From assembly GCA_019246375.1 (NCBI GenBank), contig JAFAQO010000626.1, positions 1 through 11,813 of the forward strand: a stretch of DNA of 11,813 nucleotides. Reading direction: 5' to 3'. The stretch comes from Mycobacterium sp. (lineage in GTDB: Bacteria; Actinomycetota; Actinomycetes; Mycobacteriales; Mycobacteriaceae). The notes beneath the pieces were generated by a model. The model was not told where the DNA came from and ran no database searches. It saw nothing but the letters and a program-made list of their open reading frames with translations. Every line of letters starts with the position of its first letter. Position 1 is the stretch's first letter. This document shows, piece by piece, positions 2,860-11,604 of this stretch. A program made the position numbers and the translations under genes.

Positions 2860-3828
2860 CTACTCTGAACGCGCCGCGGCCTGGTAAAGGTCCAGCGCCG
2901 CCGCGGCGGCGTCCCGCACCCGTCGCGCCAGCGACTCGGGCGCCAGCACCTGCACCGCCGACCCGAAGCCCAGCACCAGCCGCGTCATCCAGTCGTCGGA
3001 GGCGTAGGTCATCGCCGCCTCGCAGTAGCCGTCGGGCAGCTCGCGCAGCAGGCGCATCGGATAGTACTCGAACATCCACGACGCGGACGGGGCCAGCCGC
3101 AGGGTCGCCGAGGGTAGCGAGGGATCCGCGTCGAACAGCGAGGTGTCTGGCGGGGCCTGGACCGCCGGTTCGGGCGGCGCGGACGGCTCGTCGAGCACCT
3201 GCGCGTCGACGATCCGGTCGAACCGGAACAGCCGCACCCCTTCGGCCTCACGCGACCACGCCTCCAGATAGCTGTGGTCACCGACCAGCACCACCGTGAT
3301 CGGGTCCACGACGCGGCTGGACAGCGTGTCGTGTGACGCCGAATAGTAATCGATCGCCAGGGCACGGTTAGACCGCACCGCAGTGCGCACCGCCGCGGCG
3401 GCGTCGCTTTCAGCGGGCGCCGGCTCTTCGACCGCGGCCGCCGAGCCGTGAGTGGCGGCACCGGCCGCCGATTCGATTTTGGCGATCGCGCTGCGCGCCG
3501 CCTCGGGATCCAGCACACCGGGGATGTCCGCCAGCGCCCGTAACGCCGCCAGCAAGCCGGTGGCCTCCGGCGAGGTCAGCTGAAGCGGCCGGTCGATGCC
3601 CGCCGAGAACGTCACCTCGATGGTGTCACCGGAGAACTCGAAGTCGATCAGATCGCCGGGGCCGTAGCCGGGCAGGCCGCACAGCCACAGCTGGTTGAGG
3701 TCGTCGTCGAGCTGCTCCAAAGACACACCCAGGTCCGTCGCGGCCTCGGCACGGGTGATCCGGGGGTTGGCTTGGAAATACGGCACCATATTGAGCAGTC
3801 GCACGAGGCGGGTGGAGACGGGAGTCAT
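2860..3828 (-). CDS. pafC: PafC, WYL-domain transcriptional regulator
   Basis: Partner of PafB. In mycobacteria the PafB-PafC complex activates many DNA-repair genes independently of LexA/RecA. 322 residues (316 in M. tuberculosis). Seen: an amino-terminal winged-helix region (about 5-60, with ITRAEAATDLGVSLEQLDDD at 24-43), a middle helical linker ending in an Ala/Glu-rich stretch (120-147), a WYL-type domain (about 148-210, with DYYSASHDTLSSRVVDP and VGDHSYLEAW; the usual W-Y-L core is HSYLEAW here), and a WCX-like carboxy-terminal region (about 241-305). The ATG at 3828 lies inside the ATGA at the end of the MIRU copies. An AGGAGG inside the adjacent MIRU copy lies about 10 nt upstream. 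Originally pafB and pafC probably overlapped directly; two 53-bp units now separate them. Confidence 0.96.
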   Translation of the reverse strand: MTPVSTRLVRLLNMVPYFQANPRITRAEAATDLGVSLEQLDDDLNQLWLCGLPGYGPGDLIDFEFSGDTIEVTFSAGIDRPLQLTSPEATGLLAALRALADIPGVLDPEAARSAIAKIESAAGAATHGSAAAVEEPAPAESDAAAAVRTAVRSNRALAIDYYSASHDTLSSRVVDPITVVLVGDHSYLEAWSREAEGVRLFRFDRIVDAQVLDEPSAPPEPAVQAPPDTSLFDADPSLPSATLRLAPSASWMFEYYPMRLLRELPDGYCEAAMTYASDDWMTRLVLGFGSAVQVLAPESLARRVRDAAAAALDLYQAAARSE

Positions 3829-3881
3829 AGGCGCCGCTCCTCCTCATCGCTGCGCTCTGCATCGTCGCCGGCGCGGGTCAT
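3825..3881 (-). CDS. MIRU micro-ORF 2, 18 residues
   Basis: Second copy of the repeat-encoded micro-ORF, reading MTRAGDDAERSDEEERRL. It differs from the first by Arg for Gly at residue 10. Its ATG overlaps the stop of micro-ORF 1, and its own TGA overlaps the pafC ATG. The chain pafB, micro-ORF 1, micro-ORF 2, pafC is therefore linked by three ATGA junctions. No function beyond translational coupling is evident. Confidence 0.35.
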   Translation of the reverse strand: MTRAGDDAERSDEEERRL

Positions 3882-3934
3882 AGGCGCCGCTCCTCCTCAT
3901 CGCTGCCCTCTGCATCGTCGCCGGCGCGGGTCAT
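3878..3934 (-). CDS. MIRU micro-ORF 1, 18 residues
   Basis: ATG at 3934-3932 overlaps the TGA stop of pafB in an ATGA. The frame reads MTRAGDDAEGSDEEERRL and stops at a TGA that overlaps the next ATG. It is a very acidic and basic, Gly-poor peptide with no recognised domain. Its likely role, if translated, is to keep ribosomes moving from pafB to pafC rather than to make a functional peptide. Translation itself is inferred from the overlapping stop/start arrangement. Confidence 0.35.
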   Translation of the reverse strand: MTRAGDDAEGSDEEERRL

Positions 3935-4923
3935 AGGCGCGATACCTCAGCCTGGCCGCGCAACCGGGTCAACACATCCTCGCGCAGGGTCGCTGGTTCG
4001 AGCACGACGGCGTCAGCGCCGTAGCCGGTGATTTCGCGCACCAGCCGGTCGGTGGATCCGATGTCGAGTTCGATCACCTCGCCGGCGCGGCCGGCCAACT
4101 GCCGCGGGCCGATCGATCTTCCGGCGCGCCGCAGCGCGGTGACCCGTCCGTCGGCCACCCACACTGTGGCCTGCTGGCCGGTGGGCACCTCGGCGACGGC
4201 CTCGGCCACGATCTTGCGCAGATCCACGCCCTCGGGCCGGGTCACGGCGGCGGCCGGACCGATCGGTGTCACTTCGGCGCCGATCCGGGAGAGCCGGAAC
4301 ACGCGGGTGGCGTCGCGGTCGCGGTCGTGTCCGACCAGGTACCAGCGGCCCCGCTCGGTGAGCACTCCCCACGGTTCGACGGTGCGTGTGGTGTAGGGCT
4401 CGGTGCGCGAGGGCCGGTGCGGAAATTGCACCGCCTGGCCGGATTGGATGGCGGCCAGAAGCTTTCCGAGATTGCCTTCTGAGCCGCGCAGTCCCGGCTG
4501 GCCCGCCGGCGAGGCGAAGGTGACCGGGGCGTCCGGGTCGACGTCCACCCCGGCCGCCCGCAGCTTCAGCAGCGCGCCCTGGGTGGCGGTGATCAGTTCA
4601 GGCGACTCCCACAGCTGGGTGGCGACGGCGACCGCGGCCGCCTCGTCCGGGTTCAGCTCGACCGGTGGAAGCGCATAGGCGTCGCGGTTGATGCGATAGC
4701 CCTCGGTGGGCTCGAACGACGACACCCTGCCGGTCTCCAGCGGGATGCCGAGGTCGCGAAGCTCGTTCTTGTCACGCTCGAACATCCGGGAGAACGACTC
4801 GTCGGTCGGACTGTCGGAATAGCCCGCCACGCTGGCCCGGATCTTCTCTGCGGTGATGTAGCCGCGGGTGGACAGCAAGGCGATGACGAGGTTCATCAGC
4901 CGTTCGACTTTGGAGGTCGCCAT
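3931..4923 (-). CDS. pafB: PafB, WYL-domain transcriptional regulator
   Basis: Works with PafC as a DNA-damage-responsive transcription activator; WYL domains are proposed to sense single-stranded nucleic acid. 330 residues, about the family length. Seen: amino-terminal winged helix-turn-helix (about 4-80, with RLMNLVIALLSTRGYITAEK and ERDKNELRDLGIPL), a linker domain, a WYL domain (about 152-220) with the eponymous Trp194-Tyr195-Leu196 in RGRWYLVGHD and the downstream RVFRLSRI, and a WCX-like carboxy-terminal domain (about 253-328). ATG start at 4923, 16 nt after the pafA stop. The last codons (GCG-CCT-ATGA region) match the start of the MIRU unit, so the extreme carboxy-terminus may be repeat-derived. 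Part of the pafA-pafB-pafC operon. Confidence 0.97.
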   Translation of the reverse strand: MATSKVERLMNLVIALLSTRGYITAEKIRASVAGYSDSPTDESFSRMFERDKNELRDLGIPLETGRVSSFEPTEGYRINRDAYALPPVELNPDEAAAVAVATQLWESPELITATQGALLKLRAAGVDVDPDAPVTFASPAGQPGLRGSEGNLGKLLAAIQSGQAVQFPHRPSRTEPYTTRTVEPWGVLTERGRWYLVGHDRDRDATRVFRLSRIGAEVTPIGPAAAVTRPEGVDLRKIVAEAVAEVPTGQQATVWVADGRVTALRRAGRSIGPRQLAGRAGEVIELDIGSTDRLVREITGYGADAVVLEPATLREDVLTRLRGQAEVSRL

Positions 4924-4939: not shown

Positions 4940-6298
4940 CTACATGCTGGCGATCAGCCGTTTGACCCGCTCGTCGACCGACCGGAACGGGTCTTTGCAC
5001 AACACGGTGCGCTGAGCCTGGTCGTTGAGCTTCAGGTGCACCCAGTCGACGGTGAAATCGCGGCCGGCGGCCTGGGCGGCGCTGATGAATTCGCCGCGCA
5101 ACCGGGCGCGGGTGGTCTGCGGCGGATGGTCGACGGCCTCTTCGATTTCTTCGTCGGTGGTGATCCGCGATGCCAGGCCCTTGCGCTGCAGCAGGTCGAA
5201 TACGCCGCGACCGCGCTTGATGTCGTGGTAGGCCAGATCCAATTGGGCGATTTTGGGGTCGGACAGCTCCATGTTGTAGCGGTCCTGGTAACGCTGGAAC
5301 AGCTTGCGCTTGATCACCCAGTCGATCTCGGTGTCGACCTTGGCGAAGTCCTGGCTTTCCACGGCGTCGAGCTGACGGCCCCACAGGTCGACGACCTGCT
5401 CGATCTGCGCGTTGGGCTCACGGGTCTGCAGGTGCTCGACGGCGCGCGCGTAGTACTCCCGCTGGATGTCCAGCGCACTGGCCTGACGGCCGCCGGCCAG
5501 CCGCACCGGGCGGCGGCCGGTGACGTCGTGGCTGACCTCGCGGATCGCGCGAATCGGGTTGTCCAGCGAGAAATCGCGGAATGCCACGCCCGCTTCGACC
5601 ATCTCCAGTACCAGCGCGGCGGTACCCACCTTGAGCATGGTGGTGGTCTCGCACATGTTGGAGTCGCCGACGATGACGTGCAAGCGCCGGTATTTCTCGG
5701 CGTCGGCGTGCGGTTCGTCGCGGGTATTGATGATCGGGCGGCTGCGGGTGGTTGCCGAGGAGACACCTTCCCAAATGTGCTCAGCTCGCTGCGAAAGGCA
5801 GAAGGTGGCGGCCTTGGGGGTCTGCAACACCTTGCCGGCGCCGCAGATCAGCTGACGGGTCACCAGGAAGGGCAGCAGCACATCGGAAATGCGGGAAAAC
5901 TCGCCCGCCCGCACGATCAGGTAGTTCTCGTGACAGCCATACGAGTTGCCCGCCGAGTCGGTGTTGTTCTTGAACAGATAGATGTCGCCGCCGATGCCCT
6001 CGTCGGCAAGCCGCTGCTCGGCGTCGACCAGCAGATCTTCCAGCACCCGCTCGCCGGCGCGGTCGTGGGTGACCAGCTGGACCAGGCTGTCGCATTCGGC
6101 GGTCGCATACTCGGGATGGCTGCCCACGTCGAGGTAAAGCCGCGCGCCATTGCGCAGGAAAACATTCGAGCTGCGACCCCAGGAGACCACCCGGCGGAAC
6201 AAGTAGCGAGCCACCTCGTCCGGGCTGAGACGGCGGTGACCATGAAAAGTGCAGGTAACACCGAACTCGGTCTCGATGCCCATGATTCGTCGCTGCAC
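4940..6298 (-). CDS. pafA: PafA, Pup-protein ligase
   Basis: Joins the side-chain carboxylate of Pup's carboxy-terminal glutamate to a lysine of the target protein, using ATP, and so marks proteins for the proteasome. 452 residues, the same as M. tuberculosis PafA. It is a glutamine-synthetase-like carboxylate-amine ligase. Seen: MGIETEFG (residues 6-13, containing the Mg/ATP-ligand Glu9) and [12 protein letters not shown] (53-64, with the catalytic base Asp57). Further typical stretches are [17 protein letters not shown] (110-126) and [13 protein letters not shown] (187-199). The carboxy-terminal Pup-binding region ends [18 protein letters not shown]. The start is GTG at 6298, giving the family-standard amino-terminus, and it may be leaderless. 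It is separated from pup-prcB-prcA by the 3.6-kb accessory segment, so here it needs its own promoter. Confidence 0.98.
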
Positions 6299-6305
6299 GA
6301 GATCG

Positions 6306-6311
6306 AGCGTA
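6306..6311 (-). promoter_or_regulatory. Possible -10 element (TACGCT) for a leaderless pafA transcript
   Basis: On the minus strand TACGCT, matching the mycobacterial TANNNT -10 pattern, is followed by 7 nt and then the GTG start of pafA. No Shine-Dalgarno lies before this GTG. That spacing is typical of leaderless mycobacterial transcripts whose first base is the start codon. No convincing -35 was seen. Inference from pattern only. Confidence 0.4.
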
Positions 6312-6526
6312 CTGGCTGTCGGCGCGACTGGTGCGGAACCCCACTGTGGAGAATGTCGACGGGCCAGTGCTCTGACCTGCCGGGGTGGGGCGCTGGCGGG
6401 CCAACGTTAGACCGCACGTCGATGGGCGCGAGCCGGCAATTCATTCGGTCTGCCCTGAATAGTGCGGTAGAGTCGACGTTGCTCGTTGCCGCGAGCACAT
6501 TCGTAAGAAAGGCGTTTCCAACAACC
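6312..6526. other. Divergent intergenic region between pafA and the phosphodiesterase gene
   Basis: No gene is evident on either strand. It should hold the promoters of both flanking genes. For the plus-strand phosphodiesterase, TTCGGT (6444-6449), an 18-nt gap and TAGAGT (6468-6473) form a weak promoter candidate that would give a leader of roughly 45 nt. An in-frame ATG at 6422 could extend the phosphodiesterase by 35 residues but is disfavoured. No repeat or insertion-sequence end was recognised. Confidence 0.4.
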
Positions 6527-7447
6527 GTGGATAAACCCAGGGTCGCGGAGAATCCGCGGCCGGACCACGTAATCGCACACATCAGCGACACTCACCTCAT
6601 AGCCGGCGACGGCGAACTGTACGCAGCTGTCGACGCCGACGCCCGATTATCCGAGATGCTTGAGCGGCTCGAGAGTTCGCAAACGCGCCCCGACGCATTG
6701 ATCTTTACCGGCGACCTCGCCGACACCGGCCATCCAGACGCTTATCGCAAGCTGCGTGGACTGGTCGAGCCCTTGGCCGATCGCCTCGGTGCTCAGGTCA
6801 TCTGGGTGATGGGTAACCACGACAACCGAGCGGCGTTGGGCGAACATCTGCTGCGCGAGGCGCCGACGATGGCCCCGTTGGACCGGGTGCACGATGTCGC
6901 CGGCTTACGTGTCATCGTCTTGGACACCTCCGTTCCCGGCCACCACCACGGGGAGATCACGATCGAGCAGCTGCAGTGGCTCGCTGCGCAACTCGCCGAA
7001 CCCGCCCCCTTCGGCACCATCCTGGCGATGCACCACCCGCCGATTCCCAGCGTGCAGGACCTCGCCGTCATGGTGGAGCTGCGCGACCAAGCCCGACTGG
7101 CACAGGTCCTACGCGGCACCGACGTCCGCAGCATCCTCGCCGGGCACCTGCACTACTCCACCACGGCCACCTTCGCCGGCATCCCCGTCTCAGTGGCCTC
7201 GGCCAGCTGCTATACCCAGGACCTGCTGACGCCTGGAACCCGAGGTCACGATCGTGCACAAGCGTTCAACCTCGTGCACTGCTATCCAGAAACGGTTGTG
7301 CACACCGTCATACCGTTGGCCTCCGGCCCTACCGTGGGTCGGTTCGTCCCGCCTGAGGCCGTGCAGCGTGAACTGGCCGGTGCCGGCGTGAGCATCGTGC
7401 CCGCGAGCCGGATACCGCGCATCCCACGGCAGCTCGCGCGCACTTAG
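6527..7447 (+). CDS. Class III cyclic-nucleotide phosphodiesterase (Rv0805-like metallophosphoesterase)
   Basis: Binuclear-metal phosphoesterase of the CpdA/Rv0805 group, expected to hydrolyse cyclic nucleotides (Rv0805 acts on 3',5'-cAMP and better on 2',3'-cAMP). 306 residues; Rv0805 has 318. With GTG at 6527 as start, the metal ligands fall at the numbers known for Rv0805: Asp21 and His23 (SDTHL), Asp63 (TGDLAD), Asn97 and His98 (GNHD), His169 (AMHHPP), His207 and His209 (GHLHYS). The fold hallmarks [13 protein letters not shown] and [12 protein letters not shown] are also present. A purine-rich AGAAAGG about 14 nt upstream is a mediocre ribosome site. The carboxy-terminus is shorter and different from Rv0805's. 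It converges on the Stealth gene with a 3-nt gap, as Rv0805 does with cpsY in M. tuberculosis. Unusual location: between pafA and prcA. Confidence 0.93.
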
Positions 7448-7450
7448 GCT

Positions 7451-8950
7451 TCACGCGTCACCGGCTGTGCGCTCCCACGGCGCCGGAACCGGGAAGTAGC
7501 TCTCCAGGAACTCGCCAACCGTGCGTGCGCGCTCGGCCGCGTCCACCTCGGGGAAGCTGCCGTCGTTGAGGCAGAAGAAGTCGAACTTACGCTTCTTCAG
7601 CAACTCCGGCAGTTTCGCCAGCCCGGACCGCAATGTGGTGTCCACGTAGAGCACCTTCGCGGACTCATTCTGCACCGCCCGCCCAGTCATCAAGGCGTAG
7701 TAGTGGTACAGCGAGTTGGTCACCGAGATATCGGTGCTCGCGCGGAAGCGGCTCGCCTGAGTGCGCGCGAAGTCGTCCGGGAACTCACGTTCGAGTTCCA
7801 GCAGCACGCTCTTACGCAGCGGAGCAGCGGTGTGCTCGAGGTGGCGGGTGATGATCTTCCCGAACCTCTCCCGCAGCAGTTGCCGGTTGACGCGTGCCGC
7901 GTTCTCGAAGCCGCTGCGCTCGGGGTTGTTGCTCCCGAGACCGATGCGGGTACCAGCTTCGATGAACTTGGTGACCCCGCCGGGTGAGAAGAACATCGTC
8001 GGCACGAGCGACCGGCCGAAGAACATGTCGTCGTTGGAGTAGAGGAAATGTTCTGCCAGACCGGGGATGTGATGCAGCTGGGCCTCCACCGCGTGGCTGT
8101 TGTACACCGGCAGCGCGGACAGGTCGGTGAAGTGGTCCTCGGCGCGCACTATGGTGATCTTTGGGTGCGGAGCGAGCCATTCCGGCACAGGGGAATCGGT
8201 TGCGAGGAAAATCCGCCGCAGCCACGGCGCGAACACGTGCACTGAACGCAGGGCGTACTTCAGCTCGTCGATCTGGCGGACCCGCGCGTCGGCGTCATCC
8301 CCTTCGCCGACAACGTGATTCGCCATGTACGCCGCGCGTTGTGCGCGGAACTCCGGATCGTTGCCATCAACCCAAGAGAACACCATGTCGATGTCGAATG
8401 TGACGTCGCTTGCGTGTGGGGTGAACATCCCGGCGATGGTCGGCCACACGTGTCCGTGCAGTTCGACACTGCTGTGCACAACCTCGCTCAGCGGCAATGC
8501 CTTTCGGGTCAGCGAGTTCTCGATCGGGCAGATCGCCTGTTGCCCGTCGAACACCCAGAACTGCAGCTCCACCCCGGCAGAAGCGCCGAAACGCATGCCC
8601 GAACGCGGGCATTCGCGCTTACGGAACACACGCAGCAGTCGCGGGTCCGGCTCCGCCGACAACAAACCGTCACCGAGGTACACCGAGCGGCGCCTGGTCC
8701 CGTCGAGGACCTTGGCGTGCAGCGGCACTTCGAGGCATGCGGCCATCAAGGCGTTGGCAACTCGGCCGCGCAGGCCAATGTCCACGACGAGCGCCGGGCG
8801 CCCGTCCGCACCACGGATGAGCAAAAACGGAATGCCCGCCATGTCCAGCTCCGCGCGGACAAACAACAAGTCCTCGACCATCGCCTCATACGGGGTCAGG
8901 CGCGGCCCAAGGCTTGAGCCGAAGACGGGGACGTCGATCGTGCTGGTCAT
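7451..8950 (-). CDS. Stealth-family sugar-phosphate transferase (CpsY/Rv0806c-like)
   Basis: Stealth proteins are predicted or shown hexose-1-phosphate transferases that build phosphodiester-linked polysaccharides; GlcNAc-1-phosphotransferase is the eukaryotic relative. 499 residues. An amino-terminal accessory domain (about 1-170) is followed by the four conserved regions. CR1 is DIDMVFSWVDGNDPEF (186-201). CR2 runs from DELKYALRSV (228) to HFLYSNDDMFF (301-311). CR3 lies around ITRHLEHTAAPLRK to TNSLYHYYALMTGRA (367-425). CR4 lies around FFCLNDGSF to ESYFPVPAPWE (458-493). ATG at 8950 is chosen because an AGGTG lies 5 nt upstream and because the M-box leader sits just before it; the frame is open further up to 9103, but that start would fall inside the riboswitch. 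No signal peptide or membrane span is evident. Expression is probably set by the upstream Mg2+ riboswitch. M. tuberculosis cpsY has 532 residues and the same convergent neighbour. Confidence 0.93.
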   Translation of the reverse strand: MTSTIDVPVFGSSLGPRLTPYEAMVEDLLFVRAELDMAGIPFLLIRGADGRPALVVDIGLRGRVANALMAACLEVPLHAKVLDGTRRRSVYLGDGLLSAEPDPRLLRVFRKRECPRSGMRFGASAGVELQFWVFDGQQAICPIENSLTRKALPLSEVVHSSVELHGHVWPTIAGMFTPHASDVTFDIDMVFSWVDGNDPEFRAQRAAYMANHVVGEGDDADARVRQIDELKYALRSVHVFAPWLRRIFLATDSPVPEWLAPHPKITIVRAEDHFTDLSALPVYNSHAVEAQLHHIPGLAEHFLYSNDDMFFGRSLVPTMFFSPGGVTKFIEAGTRIGLGSNNPERSGFENAARVNRQLLRERFGKIITRHLEHTAAPLRKSVLLELEREFPDDFARTQASRFRASTDISVTNSLYHYYALMTGRAVQNESAKVLYVDTTLRSGLAKLPELLKKRKFDFFCLNDGSFPEVDAAERARTVGEFLESYFPVPAPWERTAGDA

Positions 8951-8966
8951 GGGAACACCTGCCTTC

Positions 8967-9005
8967 CACCCTCGATGTCGGTTCGAGACGCGCACGAAGA
9001 GGGTG
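8967..9005 (-). promoter_or_regulatory. Possible expression-platform hairpin of the M-box leader
   Basis: Between the M-box aptamer and the Stealth start, CACCCTC (9005-8999) can pair with GAGGGTG (8973-8967) as a perfect 7-bp stem. Its 3' arm abuts the GGAAGG/AGGTG ribosome-site region. An overlapping alternative pairs GGGCACC (about 9008-9002) with GGTG and CCC (8959-8951), which would cover the ribosome site directly. No U-tract follows, so translational control is more likely than intrinsic termination. This is inferred by eye, without energy calculation. Confidence 0.45.
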
Positions 9006-9034
9006 CCCGCGAAGCGGTGAAGCGGCGACGATGC

Positions 9035-9197
9035 CCTCACACGTTGAGCTTTGGCACTGGGCGACGTATCCCCGGCAGAGCCGGGAAAGCCACTTGGGAT
9101 CACCCCTTAAGCCGGGAAGATCTGTCCTGATCTTGGGCGTCTCTCGACGTCGTGAGATCAGTGGCCTATGTTCGTTCCGAAGCCTCGCCTAACGAGG
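9035..9197 (-). ncRNA. M-box (ykoK leader) magnesium riboswitch
   Basis: The minus strand matches the M-box aptamer consensus throughout its length, compared with the recalled B. subtilis mgtE leader. The closing helix P1 pairs CCTCGTT (9197-9191) with AACG-TGT-GAGG (9045-9035), including the bulge at the same place as in B. subtilis. In order follow GTTAGGCGAGGCT, a short hairpin TTCG-GAA-CGAA, ATAGGCCACT, and a TGATCT/AGATCA helix enclosing the conserved GAGACGCCCAA. Then come ACAGATC with TTAAGGGGTGATC, a perfect CCCGGC-TCT-GCCGGG hairpin (9085-9071), and the invariant CAGTGCCAAAGCTCAACG. M-boxes bind Mg2+ and turn expression down when it is plentiful; in M. tuberculosis they are known before Rv1535 and PE20. 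Here it precedes a Stealth gene by about 84 nt. Confidence 0.93.
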
Positions 9198-9206
9198 TGC
9201 TCACGC

Positions 9207-9235
9207 AGGATAGCTCGGGTTCGAACTCCCGGCAA
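9207..9235 (-). promoter_or_regulatory. SigA-type promoter for the M-box/Stealth transcript
   Basis: Minus strand: TTGCCG (-35, 9235-9230), a 17-nt spacer, then TATCCT (-10, 9212-9207). The predicted first transcribed base is about 9200, three bases before the M-box P1 helix begins. Correct spacing, both hexamers near consensus and the position relative to the riboswitch support it together. The spacer contains a TTCGAA palindrome of unknown meaning. Confidence 0.7.
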
Positions 9236-9378
9236 CCATGCTGGGCCGCAGCAAAACGGCAGCAACATGCTGAAAGCGGAAATTGACCCCTGCGCAGGTG
9301 GCTGCCACCGATAAATGATCGAATTGGCACGCCATCAATGGTTTCACCGGCGCCGTCACAGGTGGGCAACGGCCAATG
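9236..9378. other. Intergenic tail between the Stealth promoter and the NADAR gene; no gene seen
   Basis: The whole 428-bp gap 8951-9378 is accounted for on its left side by leader, M-box and promoter. The remaining 143 bp carry no recognisable coding sequence. The only structure noted is a perfect inverted repeat GGTGGC-T-GCCACC (9297-9309), possibly an operator. Composition is slightly less GC-rich than the flanking genes. Confidence 0.4.
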
Positions 9379-9849
9379 TCAGCAACCCAGGGCCGTCAGC
9401 CGTAGTCGAGCGGCCATCAGGATGACGCCGAGCGCGTTTGCGCCGGGAATATCGCAATGCTCGTCGCAGCTACACGAACCCCAGGTTTGGTCATGCCAGG
9501 TGTTTCCTTCCACCAGCAGCGACCCTTCAGTGGCAAGCAAGCGGCGAGCCAGCTCGGCGTTGTGATCGAACTTCGCGCGAACCACCTCTTCCATCGCCAC
9601 GAATTTGGCGCCGGCTTCCCAGCCGTCGACCAAAGGCGCGGCCCGGCCGATTCGCTTGGCCTGCGCCGGATCGTCGGTGTCACGGATCGCGGCGATGGCT
9701 GATGCATCTCGCGTCTTGGCCGCGGCGAAGGCGTGCTCGCTCGTCGCGTATAGCCAACCTCTATGCGGGGTGGGAGCTGCAGCAAAATTCGAAAGAAACA
9801 AGTAGTCACCCGAAAAGGTGTCGATGACCGGAATATGAAGCGCGTTAAT
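9379..9849 (-). CDS. NADAR-domain protein (YbiA-like), apparent ATT start
   Basis: NADAR proteins act on ADP-ribose-type N-glycosides; some are antitoxins removing ADP-ribose from guanine in DNA, others (YbiA) process riboflavin-pathway intermediates. From ATT at 9849 the product is 156 residues, the usual domain length. Seen: DTFSGDYLFLSNF (10-22), the conserved YATSEHAF with Glu38 (34-41), KTRD, KRIGRAAPLVDGW (65-77), AMEEVVRAKFDHN (85-97), LLATEGSLLVEGNTWHDQTWG (104-124), a Cys cluster CSCDEHC (126-132) and GANALGVILMAAR (136-148). The frame is open from 9888 with no ATG or GTG. The only usual-type start, TTG at 9801, would cut off the conserved DTFSGDY. GGAGG at 9860-9856 sits 6 nt before the ATT. 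Same strand as prcA, 100 nt downstream. No DarT-type toxin is nearby. Confidence 0.85.
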   Translation of the reverse strand: MNALHIPVIDTFSGDYLFLSNFAAAPTPHRGWLYATSEHAFAAAKTRDASAIAAIRDTDDPAQAKRIGRAAPLVDGWEAGAKFVAMEEVVRAKFDHNAELARRLLATEGSLLVEGNTWHDQTWGSCSCDEHCDIPGANALGVILMAARLRLTALGC

Positions 9850-9853
9850 CGGG

Positions 9854-9860
9854 CACCTCC
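9854..9860 (-). promoter_or_regulatory. Strong ribosome binding site (GGAGGTG) before the NADAR ATT codon
   Basis: GGAGG lies 6 nt upstream of ATT at 9849-9847. It decides the start: the GTG within GGAGGTG reads only two further codons before TAA in another frame, and no other start codon is suitably placed. Confidence 0.6.
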
Positions 9861-9949
9861 GCAGCTTGCACTTCCACTGTGCGCCAAGCTACGCGAGACG
9901 CCGGACAGACGTCGGCGCGAAAACGTGTGGCGGAACCCGAGCCCCTGAA

Positions 9950-10705
9950 CTACTTCGACGACTTGCCGCTACCCGAGCCGGAGCCGCTGGGTTTCGGCAG
10001 CAGTGAATCCAGCGCGGACCCGGTGATGCGCCGAAACGCGCGCCGCGGCCGCTTTGCGTCGAGGATGGCCACCTCCAAGGAGGACACCCCCAGGCTGGGC
10101 TGATCGCTGCCGGAACCGGAGCTCTCGCTGCTGCCTGCGCGCAGCGCCTCGACCGCGATTCGGACCGCGTCGGTCAGGTCGGCGTTTTCGGCGTAGGAGT
10201 CTTTGAGCGCGGTGGTGATCGGCTCGGTTGTACCGCCCATCACGACGAAATGCGGCTCGTCGGCGATCGACCCGTCGTAGGTGATCCGGTACAGCTCCGG
10301 CGGTTTCGTCTCGCCGTAGTGAGCGACCTCGGCCACGCACAATTCAACCTCGTAGGGCTTGGCCTGTTCGGTGAAGATGGTGCCCAGCGTCTGGGCGTAC
10401 ACGTTGGCCAGCTGCCGGCCGGTGACGTCGCGGCGGTCATAGGCGTAGCCGCGGGTATCGGCGAACTGGATCCCGCCGCGGCGCAGGTTGTCGAACTCGT
10501 TAAACTTGCCCGCCGCAGCGAAGCCGACACGGTCGTAGAGCTCGCTGATCTTCTGCAGTGACCGCGACGGGTTCTCGGCGACGAACAGAACGCCGCCGGC
10601 GTAAGCCAGCGCGACCACGCTGCGGCCCCGCGCGATGCCCTTGCGCGCGAGCTCGCTGCGCTCGCGCATCGCCTGCTCGGGCGAAATGAAGTACGGAAAG
10701 CTCAC
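9950..10705 (-). CDS. prcA: PrcA, proteasome 20S alpha subunit
   Basis: Forms the two outer rings of the 20S core and gates substrate entry; the regulators Mpa and Bpa dock on it. 251 residues (248 in M. tuberculosis). Starts [23 protein letters not shown], the gating amino-terminus, followed by the alpha-type fold with [37 protein letters not shown] and [19 protein letters not shown]. The region ahead of the carboxy-terminus ends [15 protein letters not shown]. The tail then turns into a Gly/Ser repeat with basic end ([15 protein letters not shown]), unlike the acidic Gln/Ser-rich tail recalled for M. tuberculosis. A second Ser/Gly run lies at about 199-207. It overlaps prcB by GTGA, so the two subunits are translationally coupled. 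Confidence 0.97.
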
Positions 10706-11604
10706 GAGTCACCCCGCGACCGCTCGGCATCGGGCCCGAACGTATCGCTTCGCGACCGGCGTTCGATGACCTCGCGCGCCAACTCCGCGATGCGCTGCTC
10801 GGGCACGTCGACCGCGCCGTCCACGCCGATGGTGACCGCGGTCGGGTAGATGCCGCGAACCAGATCCGGCCCGCCGGTGGCCGAATCGTCGTCGGCGGCG
10901 TCGTAGAGCGCTTCTATGGCTACCCGCAGCCCTGAATCGGCATCCGTCACTTGCGAGTAGAGCTTCTTCACCGACGACTTGGCGAAGATCGACCCCGAAC
11001 CCACGGCCTGGTAGCCCTCTTCTTCGATGTTCCAGCCGCCGGCGGCGTCGAACGACACGATGCGGCCCGCCTTCTGCGGGTCCGGGTCGTCGATGTCGAA
11101 GCCGACCAGCAGCGGTAGCGCGACCAAGCCCTGCATCGCCGCGCCCAGGTTGCCGCGAACCATGATCGCGAGCCGGTTGACCTTGCCGGCAAACGTCATC
11201 GGTACGCCTTCGAGCTTCTCGTAGTGCTCGAGTTCGACCGCGTAGAGCCGGGCGAACTCAACGGCGATCGCCGCAGTGCCGGCGATGCCGGTCGCTGTGT
11301 AGTCGTCGGTGATGTAGACCTTCTGCATGTCGCGCCCGGCAATCATGTTGCCCTGGGTCGAGCGCCGGTCGCCGGCGATGACGACACCGCCTGGGTATTT
11401 CAGAGCCACGATCGTGGTGCCGTGCGGTAGTTGGGCACCGGGCGCTATGCTGCCGGGCGCTACGCCGCCACCCGTGGCCACCGGCAATAGCTCCGGCGCC
11501 TGGCGGCGCAGGAAGTCAGTGAACGAGGACAGGTCTACAGGGCTAGCTGGGGCTCCGGGGAATGCTGAGTTAGTGGCCAGGTGATCGCGGAACGGCCAGG
11601 TCAC
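10702..11604 (-). CDS. prcB: PrcB, proteasome 20S beta subunit (threonine protease)
   Basis: Catalytic subunit of the inner rings. 300 residues (291 in M. tuberculosis). A propeptide of 62 residues ends in QLPHG, and autocleavage before Thr63 ([17 protein letters not shown]) exposes the active-site threonine. Lys95 of the conserved GRDMQKVY and the [10 protein letters not shown] and [20 protein letters not shown] stretches are typical of the family. The propeptide is about 5 residues longer than the 57 of M. tuberculosis, mostly from a Gly/Ala/Pro-rich stretch at 42-58. Its GTG start lies in a GTGA overlap with the pup stop, and its stop overlaps the prcA start the same way. Confidence 0.98.

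Follow-up and report, generated by a model that had tools for sequence, protein, structure and literature searches.

An M-box riboswitch lies directly upstream of a Stealth-family sugar-phosphate transferase gene in the 11,813-nucleotide stretch of Mycobacterium sp. DNA analysed here (contig JAFAQO010000626.1, in the following the window). With a probability of roughly 75% we propose that the riboswitch acts as a Mg2+ OFF-switch on translation and directly controls this single gene, the product of which is expected to serve a phosphate-containing surface glycan. The link between riboswitch and Stealth gene as such is regarded as highly probable, and a switch acting on translation as the somewhat favored platform. 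That Mg2+ is the ligand, that it turns the gene off, that two pairings alternate and that such a polymer is made are inferences. The occurrence of an M-box in front of a Stealth gene, initially described in a first-pass annotation of the sequence, is confirmed, and the interpretation given there is partly supported.

M-box, promoter and Stealth gene

The M-box (ykoK) aptamer occupies positions 9029–9203 of the minus strand and matches Rfam model RF00380 over its full length (model positions 1–169 of 169) with 126.7 bits and an E value of 9e-29, compared to a gathering score of 44 bits. It is the sole Rfam match at E ≤ 1 in the window, both strands being scanned. The segments GACGCCCAA, AAGGGGTGATC and CAGTGCCAAAGCTC, which had been named as marks of a full M-box, are all located inside the matched stretch, so that this assignment holds. 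Five pair positions are non-standard in the RF00380 alignment, mostly in P1 and P2. Of the bounds given initially, 9035 and 9235, the upper one coincides with the first base of the −35 box, and the aptamer runs six bases past the lower one, to 9029.

The −35 box TTGCCG (9230–9235, minus strand) is kept in 10/10 mycobacterial orthologs and reads TTGCGC in Segniliparus rugosus. The −10 box TATCCT (9207–9212, minus strand) follows after 17 nt, and TAnnnT with the 17-nt spacing is found in all 11 distinct leaders compared in this study. The well-spaced SigA-type promoter proposed at the 5' edge is thereby corroborated, since hexamers and spacing are kept in all ten mycobacteria, although a strict consensus promoter scan found none at the window leader. 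The distance from the promoter end to the P1 5' strand (GCACC) amounts to 6 nt in the ten mycobacteria and 7 nt in S. rugosus; transcription presumably starts at about the first bases of P1. In each of the 11 distinct leaders, promoter hexamers, aptamer and ATG follow one another with no gene between.

The downstream gene (7451–8950, minus strand, 499 aa) exhibits the Stealth regions CR1 to CR4 (PF17101, PF11380, PF17102 and PF17103), each above its Pfam cut-off; an NCBIfam search of the protein gave no match. Its best start is the ATG at 8950, the protein beginning with MTSTIDV. With this start and no intervening gene, the position of a Stealth gene downstream of the M-box, as suggested previously, is verified. 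Longer reading frames from GTG 9103, which would start within the aptamer, or from GTG 9040 were rejected due to ortholog distances that are out of frame: among the orthologs the Stealth ATG lies 73, 74, 82, 83 or 143 nt beyond the P1 3' strand, and because these distances keep no single frame, an N-terminal extension into the aptamer was dismissed. A mini-ORF over the start codon (GTG TTC CCA TGA) was rejected as well, its frame being changed in orthologs with one extra base.

Similar to CpsY of M. tuberculosis, a member of the same family, the window protein contains CR1 to CR4 and the same Asp and Arg ligand positions. Comparison with the CpsY crystal chain 8j2n gave an E value of 8e-169, and the Asp of CR2 and the Arg of CR3 are kept as D308 and R403 (counted from the 8j2n alignment). 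In the model of PMC10668966 these residues contact Mg2+ and phosphate; CpsY is described there as needing magnesium or manganese, and capsule polysaccharides of its kind as having phosphodiester-linked repeats. The expected role of the Stealth product is to synthesize or lengthen a surface glycan that contains phosphate. A second, CpsY-type Stealth gene of the same genome (locus L178, G000 contig C301, 12–1130, plus strand) is cut off, leader included, by the contig end.

On the minus strand, open reading frames and Pfam matches reveal the order prcB, prcA, NADAR gene, promoter, M-box and Stealth gene. Past the latter, a convergent metallophosphoesterase gene is followed by minus-strand pafA, pafB, pafC, tatC and a helicase gene. 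The names prcA/prcB, paf and tatC are those we assume from the Pfam matches and general knowledge, and the metallophosphoesterase gene is presumably Rv0805-like. The Stealth gene is directly downstream of the M-box and its sole co-directional target, the next gene being convergent. A metal transporter, for Mg2+ or another metal, is the typical, though not strictly defining, output of an M-box; the target found here is a Stealth protein.

Several further features were observed in this region. The NADAR-domain gene (9379–9801, minus strand) is located between prcA and the M-box promoter in 4/10 genomes (the window genome, G234, G368 and G060) and scores under the NCBIfam cut-offs for both the N-glycosidase and the anti-phage models. 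Between it and the promoter a weak terminator-like hairpin occurs (9272–9260, minus strand; one found vs. 0.4 expected by chance). A 53-bp tandem repeat at 3824–3940 (2.2 copies, 98% matches) marks the junction of two WYL-domain genes, the start of pafC and the end of pafB. In 10/10 mycobacteria of the group the pair of Stealth and metallophosphoesterase genes is flanked by prcBA, which code for the proteasome, on one side and by pafA, the Pup ligase gene, on the other (window 4940–11604). Convergent orientation of the metallophosphoesterase gene (6458–7447, plus strand) to the Stealth gene (7451–8950, minus strand) was observed in 29 of 32 loci, four of which duplicate others (window, L019–L022, L058–L073, L128 and L168–L178). 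It spans Arthrobacter and Williamsia to Mycobacterium, with one intervening gene in S. rugosus, and is absent from L177, L178 and L072, the last two being at contig ends. This gene pair appears to be ancient, and a functional link between its members is conceivable.

Distribution and descent of the pairing

To search for related leaders, the 301-nt leader was compared with the DNA of 396 genomes of the genus, the window genome included, and some match was obtained in 199. Among the matches listed, the leader was matched nearly over its full length (277–301 nt) in ten genomes including that of the window, and the other listed matches cover the aptamer part alone; a leader with a spacer as diverged as that of Segniliparus could escape this search. 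When named genomes were searched at the protein level and the best 80 loci kept, the five closest loci belong to Mycobacterium sp. SM1, two MAGs, M. kyorinense and Segniliparus rugosus, and all five carry an M-box before the Stealth gene. Four of them are the same records as G131, G196, G299 and G367, with identical leaders, so that the distinct set comprises 11 leaders, from ten mycobacteria (window included) and S. rugosus.

The ten mycobacteria share the order prcB, prcA, M-box, Stealth gene, convergent metallophosphoesterase gene and pafA, with the NADAR gene inserted in 4/10. In S. rugosus the pairing is found at a different locus, where a TetR gene and, in divergent orientation, a VIT1 gene are located upstream and the Stealth and metallophosphoesterase genes are separated by a gene for a methyltransferase; this genome has one M-box and one Stealth gene, and the two are paired together. 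The VIT1-family gene (metal transport; L062, 3815–4543, minus strand) shares its upstream region with the M-box. A single Stealth_CR2 match, the M-box-linked gene, is present in 7/9 of the other group mycobacteria and in S. rugosus. Two matches are present in G060, G196 and the window genome, the second copies being CpsY-type in the tree. Between two and six M-boxes per genome were found in the nine other group mycobacteria. The comparison shows that M-box, conserved promoter and Stealth gene are kept together as a unit.

From a search of 119 relatives, 20 of 23 Stealth loci were scanned with Rfam, and the one with an M-box is the ortholog in G060. Scans of 11 of the best 80 named Stealth loci gave five with and six without M-box; none was detected by Rfam before the Stealth genes of M. 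szulgai, Mycobacterium sp. E787, M. leprae, M. simiae, a Microbacteriaceae MAG and Williamsia. The expectation that the same leader precedes other mycobacterial Stealth genes was thus borne out for the nine other group mycobacteria but not for the CpsY-type genes examined, that of M. leprae included. In an order-wide sample of 348 genomes, 49 gave a Stealth match, the window genome among them. An M-box search with stricter filters in the other 48 found M-boxes in nine, none adjoining a Stealth gene; where both share a contig, at least 33 kb separate them, the distance being undefined where the two are on different contigs. Within the 119 relatives, a set overlapping the 348-genome sample, 14 besides the window genome and G060 have both elements (one Stealth match being weak), and none are adjacent by coordinates.

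A tree of 32 Stealth proteins unites the 11 M-box-associated genes with the M-box-free gene of a second Segniliparus genome (G445) in one clade with a support of 100/100. Its sister is a mycobacterial CpsY-type clade, M-box-free in the leaders examined; both types are present in the window genome, G060 and G196. An earlier tree of 38 proteins, in which G445 was not included, also placed the 11 M-box-linked proteins in one clade (100/100). For G445 no M-box over threshold was found, and none turned up at its Stealth locus in a permissive Rfam scan either. There, a TetR-like stretch directly precedes the Stealth gene (L196), and since similarity to the S. rugosus leader starts only downstream of the aptamer, aptamer and VIT1 gene were probably lost together; gain of the aptamer in S. 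rugosus is conceivable as an alternative.

The aptamers themselves were compared in a tree of 63 sequences, namely those extracted by a motif scan from the loci supplied. The 11 Stealth-linked aptamers group apart from the remaining 52 (SH-aLRT 90.8, bootstrap 91). Eleven alignment columns nearly always differ between both groups, and eight of these fall within or beside the P1 3' strand, which is proposed below to pair with the spacer.

Identity to the window was determined for the ten other leaders and amounts to 0.89–0.94 in the aptamer, 0.50–0.77 in the promoter stretch, 0.23–0.89 in the spacer and 0.15–0.34 in the 110 nt further upstream. In comparison, identity to the window at fourfold-degenerate sites is 0.45–0.63 over the first 1200 nt of the ten orthologous Stealth genes. 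The aptamer is conserved far above neighboring silent sites. These values bear on the possibility that the aptamer is a relic or a chance neighbor without effect on the Stealth gene, as might be suspected from the window copy scoring lowest of the five M-boxes in its genome and from one Segniliparus genome that keeps the gene without the aptamer. An aptamer identity of 89–94% to ten orthologs against 45–63% at fourfold sites, the fixed promoter spacing and the retention of the pairing at two different loci all speak against a relic, which we consider very improbable.

Spacer and proposed switch

The spacer between aptamer and Stealth gene is variable in the ten mycobacterial leaders apart from a few stretches. 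The stretch CCCTCTnnGTGC is invariant at 10/12 positions compared to 10/53 (Fisher p 5e-5, a post hoc value for a segment chosen after seeing the alignment). The strand CCCUCU (8998–9003, minus strand), invariant in 10/10 mycobacterial leaders, is proposed to be shared by two pairings. Its CCCUC is complementary to GAGGG in the P1 3' strand (9034–9038, minus strand), which is found in nine of ten mycobacterial leaders and is GGGGG in one, the pairing being kept in all ten. CCUCUUC is complementary to parts of GGAAGGCAGG, the region for ribosome binding in front of the Stealth gene (8958–8967, minus strand; GGAAGGC invariant in 10/10 mycobacterial leaders), with two bases of GGAAGGCAGG bulged.

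From these complementarities a two-state mechanism can be sketched. Transcription would start at the foot of P1. With ample Mg2+ the aptamer would fold and hold the P1 3' strand (GUGAGGG), leaving the spacer CCCUCU free to pair with GGAAGGCAGG, and the Stealth gene would be off. When Mg2+ falls, P1 would open and GAGGG would pair with CCCUC, whereby the ribosome-binding region would be freed and the enzyme made. Loss of translation may additionally bring about Rho-dependent termination, as published for the pe20 leader.

The pairings were scored in the ten mycobacterial leaders, the S. rugosus spacer being too diverged for this comparison, and both structures were derived from the same sequences that were used for scoring. 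The anti-P1 pairing, together with a second, weaker helix CGUGU-GCGCG, holds in 99.0% of 96 cells and the ribosome-site pairing in 95.7% of 70 cells, the latter helix being mismatched in 3/10 leaders. Controls slid by 1–3 columns reached at most 83.9% and 75.7%, respectively. Two-sided pair changes were found in neither helix among the ten leaders, and the covariation of the slid controls was equal or higher (0.093 vs. 0.091, and 0.143, with one two-sided pair, vs. 0.105). Duplex energies in 11 leaders were no better than those of dinucleotide shuffles (mean z 0.01 and 0.21). When folded as a single sequence, the complete leader was no more stable than its shuffled versions, 88/200 of which fold at least as well, and the minimum-energy form is not the aptamer fold. 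A further perfect pairing, that of CACCCUC with GAGGGUG immediately ahead of the ribosome-binding site, was discarded because M. kyorinense carries GAGCGUG at this position.

The missing covariation support for the two states also fits a switch in which the same M-box acts mainly on transcription, CCCUCUUCG being a Rho-loading site or part of a termination element exposed on Mg2+ binding, and masking of the ribosome-binding site being secondary. The conserved spacer stretch is pyrimidine-rich, and for the pe20 leader Rho-dependent termination upstream of uORF2 was described by authors who leave the transcriptional reading open (PMC12810186). On the other hand, the conservation is consistent with complementarity to two G-rich strands, including the ribosome-binding region, and a scan that is blind to Rho sites revealed no terminator-like site in the stretch from aptamer to gene. 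We regard a mainly transcriptional switch as rather unlikely and prefer translational control.

A different ligand would leave this architecture unchanged: the switch could work as described while responding in the cell to Mn2+ or a further divalent metal, or to more than one metal. According to work cited in PMC12810186 the rv1535 M-box was suggested to associate with other divalent cations, one M-box of the window genome precedes an Nramp-family gene, and CpsY requires Mg2+ or Mn2+ (PMC10668966). Against this stand the full-length match of the aptamer to the Mg2+ M-box model and the response of the pe20 leader to Mg2+ (as cited in PMC12810186), which make a different cellular ligand improbable and leave Mg2+ as the preferred one.

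Relation to known M-boxes and biological meaning

The closest comparison is offered by the pe20 M-box of M. tuberculosis (Rv1805A-pe20 operon), a platform that controls uORF2 in a layout supported by reporter tests (PMC12810186). Both belong to the same RNA family and, as we propose for the Stealth leader, combine a G-rich strand at the aptamer end, a pyrimidine-rich strand in the middle and a ribosome-binding region. The regulated start is similarly far from the aptamer: the Stealth ATG is at offset 253 from the aptamer start, and the uORF2-type starts of the four other M-boxes in the window genome are at 255–267. Each of these four has a 26-codon uORF2-type ORF with Pro at position 7 (4/4); one precedes PE/PPE genes and one the Nramp-family gene. 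In contrast, no uORF2 (Rv1805A-like, Pro at position 7) occurs behind the window aptamer, and the Stealth start (MTSTIDV) takes its place. The target is a glycan phosphotransferase instead of PE/PPE-mgtC, and the Stealth aptamers form a group separate from the other aptamers compared (11 vs. 52).

M-boxes are also found in divergent arrangement in these genomes. At L179 (2448–3131) of the window genome two of them are located about 350 nt apart, one directed towards PE and PPE genes and the other towards an Nramp-family gene. Divergent pairs within about 1.1 kb occur in G060, G234, G368, G298 and G131 as well.

Similar to the Bacillus subtilis ykoK (mgtE) M-box, the Stealth leader carries a full-length RF00380 aptamer and is presumed to be a Mg2+ OFF-switch; ykoK, however, combines an intrinsic terminator with a Mg2+ transporter (PMC12810186), whereas here no terminator-like site was found by scan and the target is not a transporter. 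Four classes of mycobacterial M-boxes were described from nine genomes, namely pe20, Mn-type, rv1535 and mgtE (PMC12810186). The main text of that paper does not contain the words Stealth, cps, capsul, polysaccharide, kyorinense or Segniliparus. It mentions "various transferases" near rv1535-type elements, and as these are unnamed in the main text some overlap with the pairing reported here is possible. In other reports, M. avium has M-boxes ahead of genes for a PE protein, a hypothetical protein and a manganese/iron transporter (PMC3774663), and M. abscessus has one ahead of mgtE (PMC4974804). In the open-licence literature no description of an M-box-Stealth pairing was found, in line with the initial remark that none was known.

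Two physiological readings can be considered. An anionic polymer could retain Mg2+ at the envelope, by analogy with teichoic acids, or extra enzyme could offset the activity lost when its own Mg2+ cofactor becomes scarce. Envelope remodelling inside host cells had been suggested in the first-pass annotation; since the window genome is an assembly of 736 contigs and MAGs are the source of two named orthologs, life in host cells does not follow from their origin. Tentatively, and with the odds somewhat against it, the Stealth-linked elements may represent a fifth mycobacterial M-box class, in which Mg2+ shortage would induce an anionic, teichoic-acid-like coat that buffers envelope Mg2+ by means of a dedicated low-Mg2+ Stealth enzyme, distinct from the M-box-free CpsY.

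M-boxes are mainly regarded as switches of metal uptake. Here, an RNA sensor for Mg2+ is tied to a glycan phosphotransferase of the capsule-polymer kind in two bacterial families, which suggests that Mg2+ shortage may switch on the synthesis of a phosphate-containing surface polymer, beyond metal uptake. If Mg2+ control is confirmed, the switch would reveal a condition under which the polymer made by Stealth/CpsY enzymes is wanted and thereby offer a simple way into the purpose of this polymer. It would also mean that anionic surface polymers can belong to the programmed response of actinobacteria to Mg2+ shortage.
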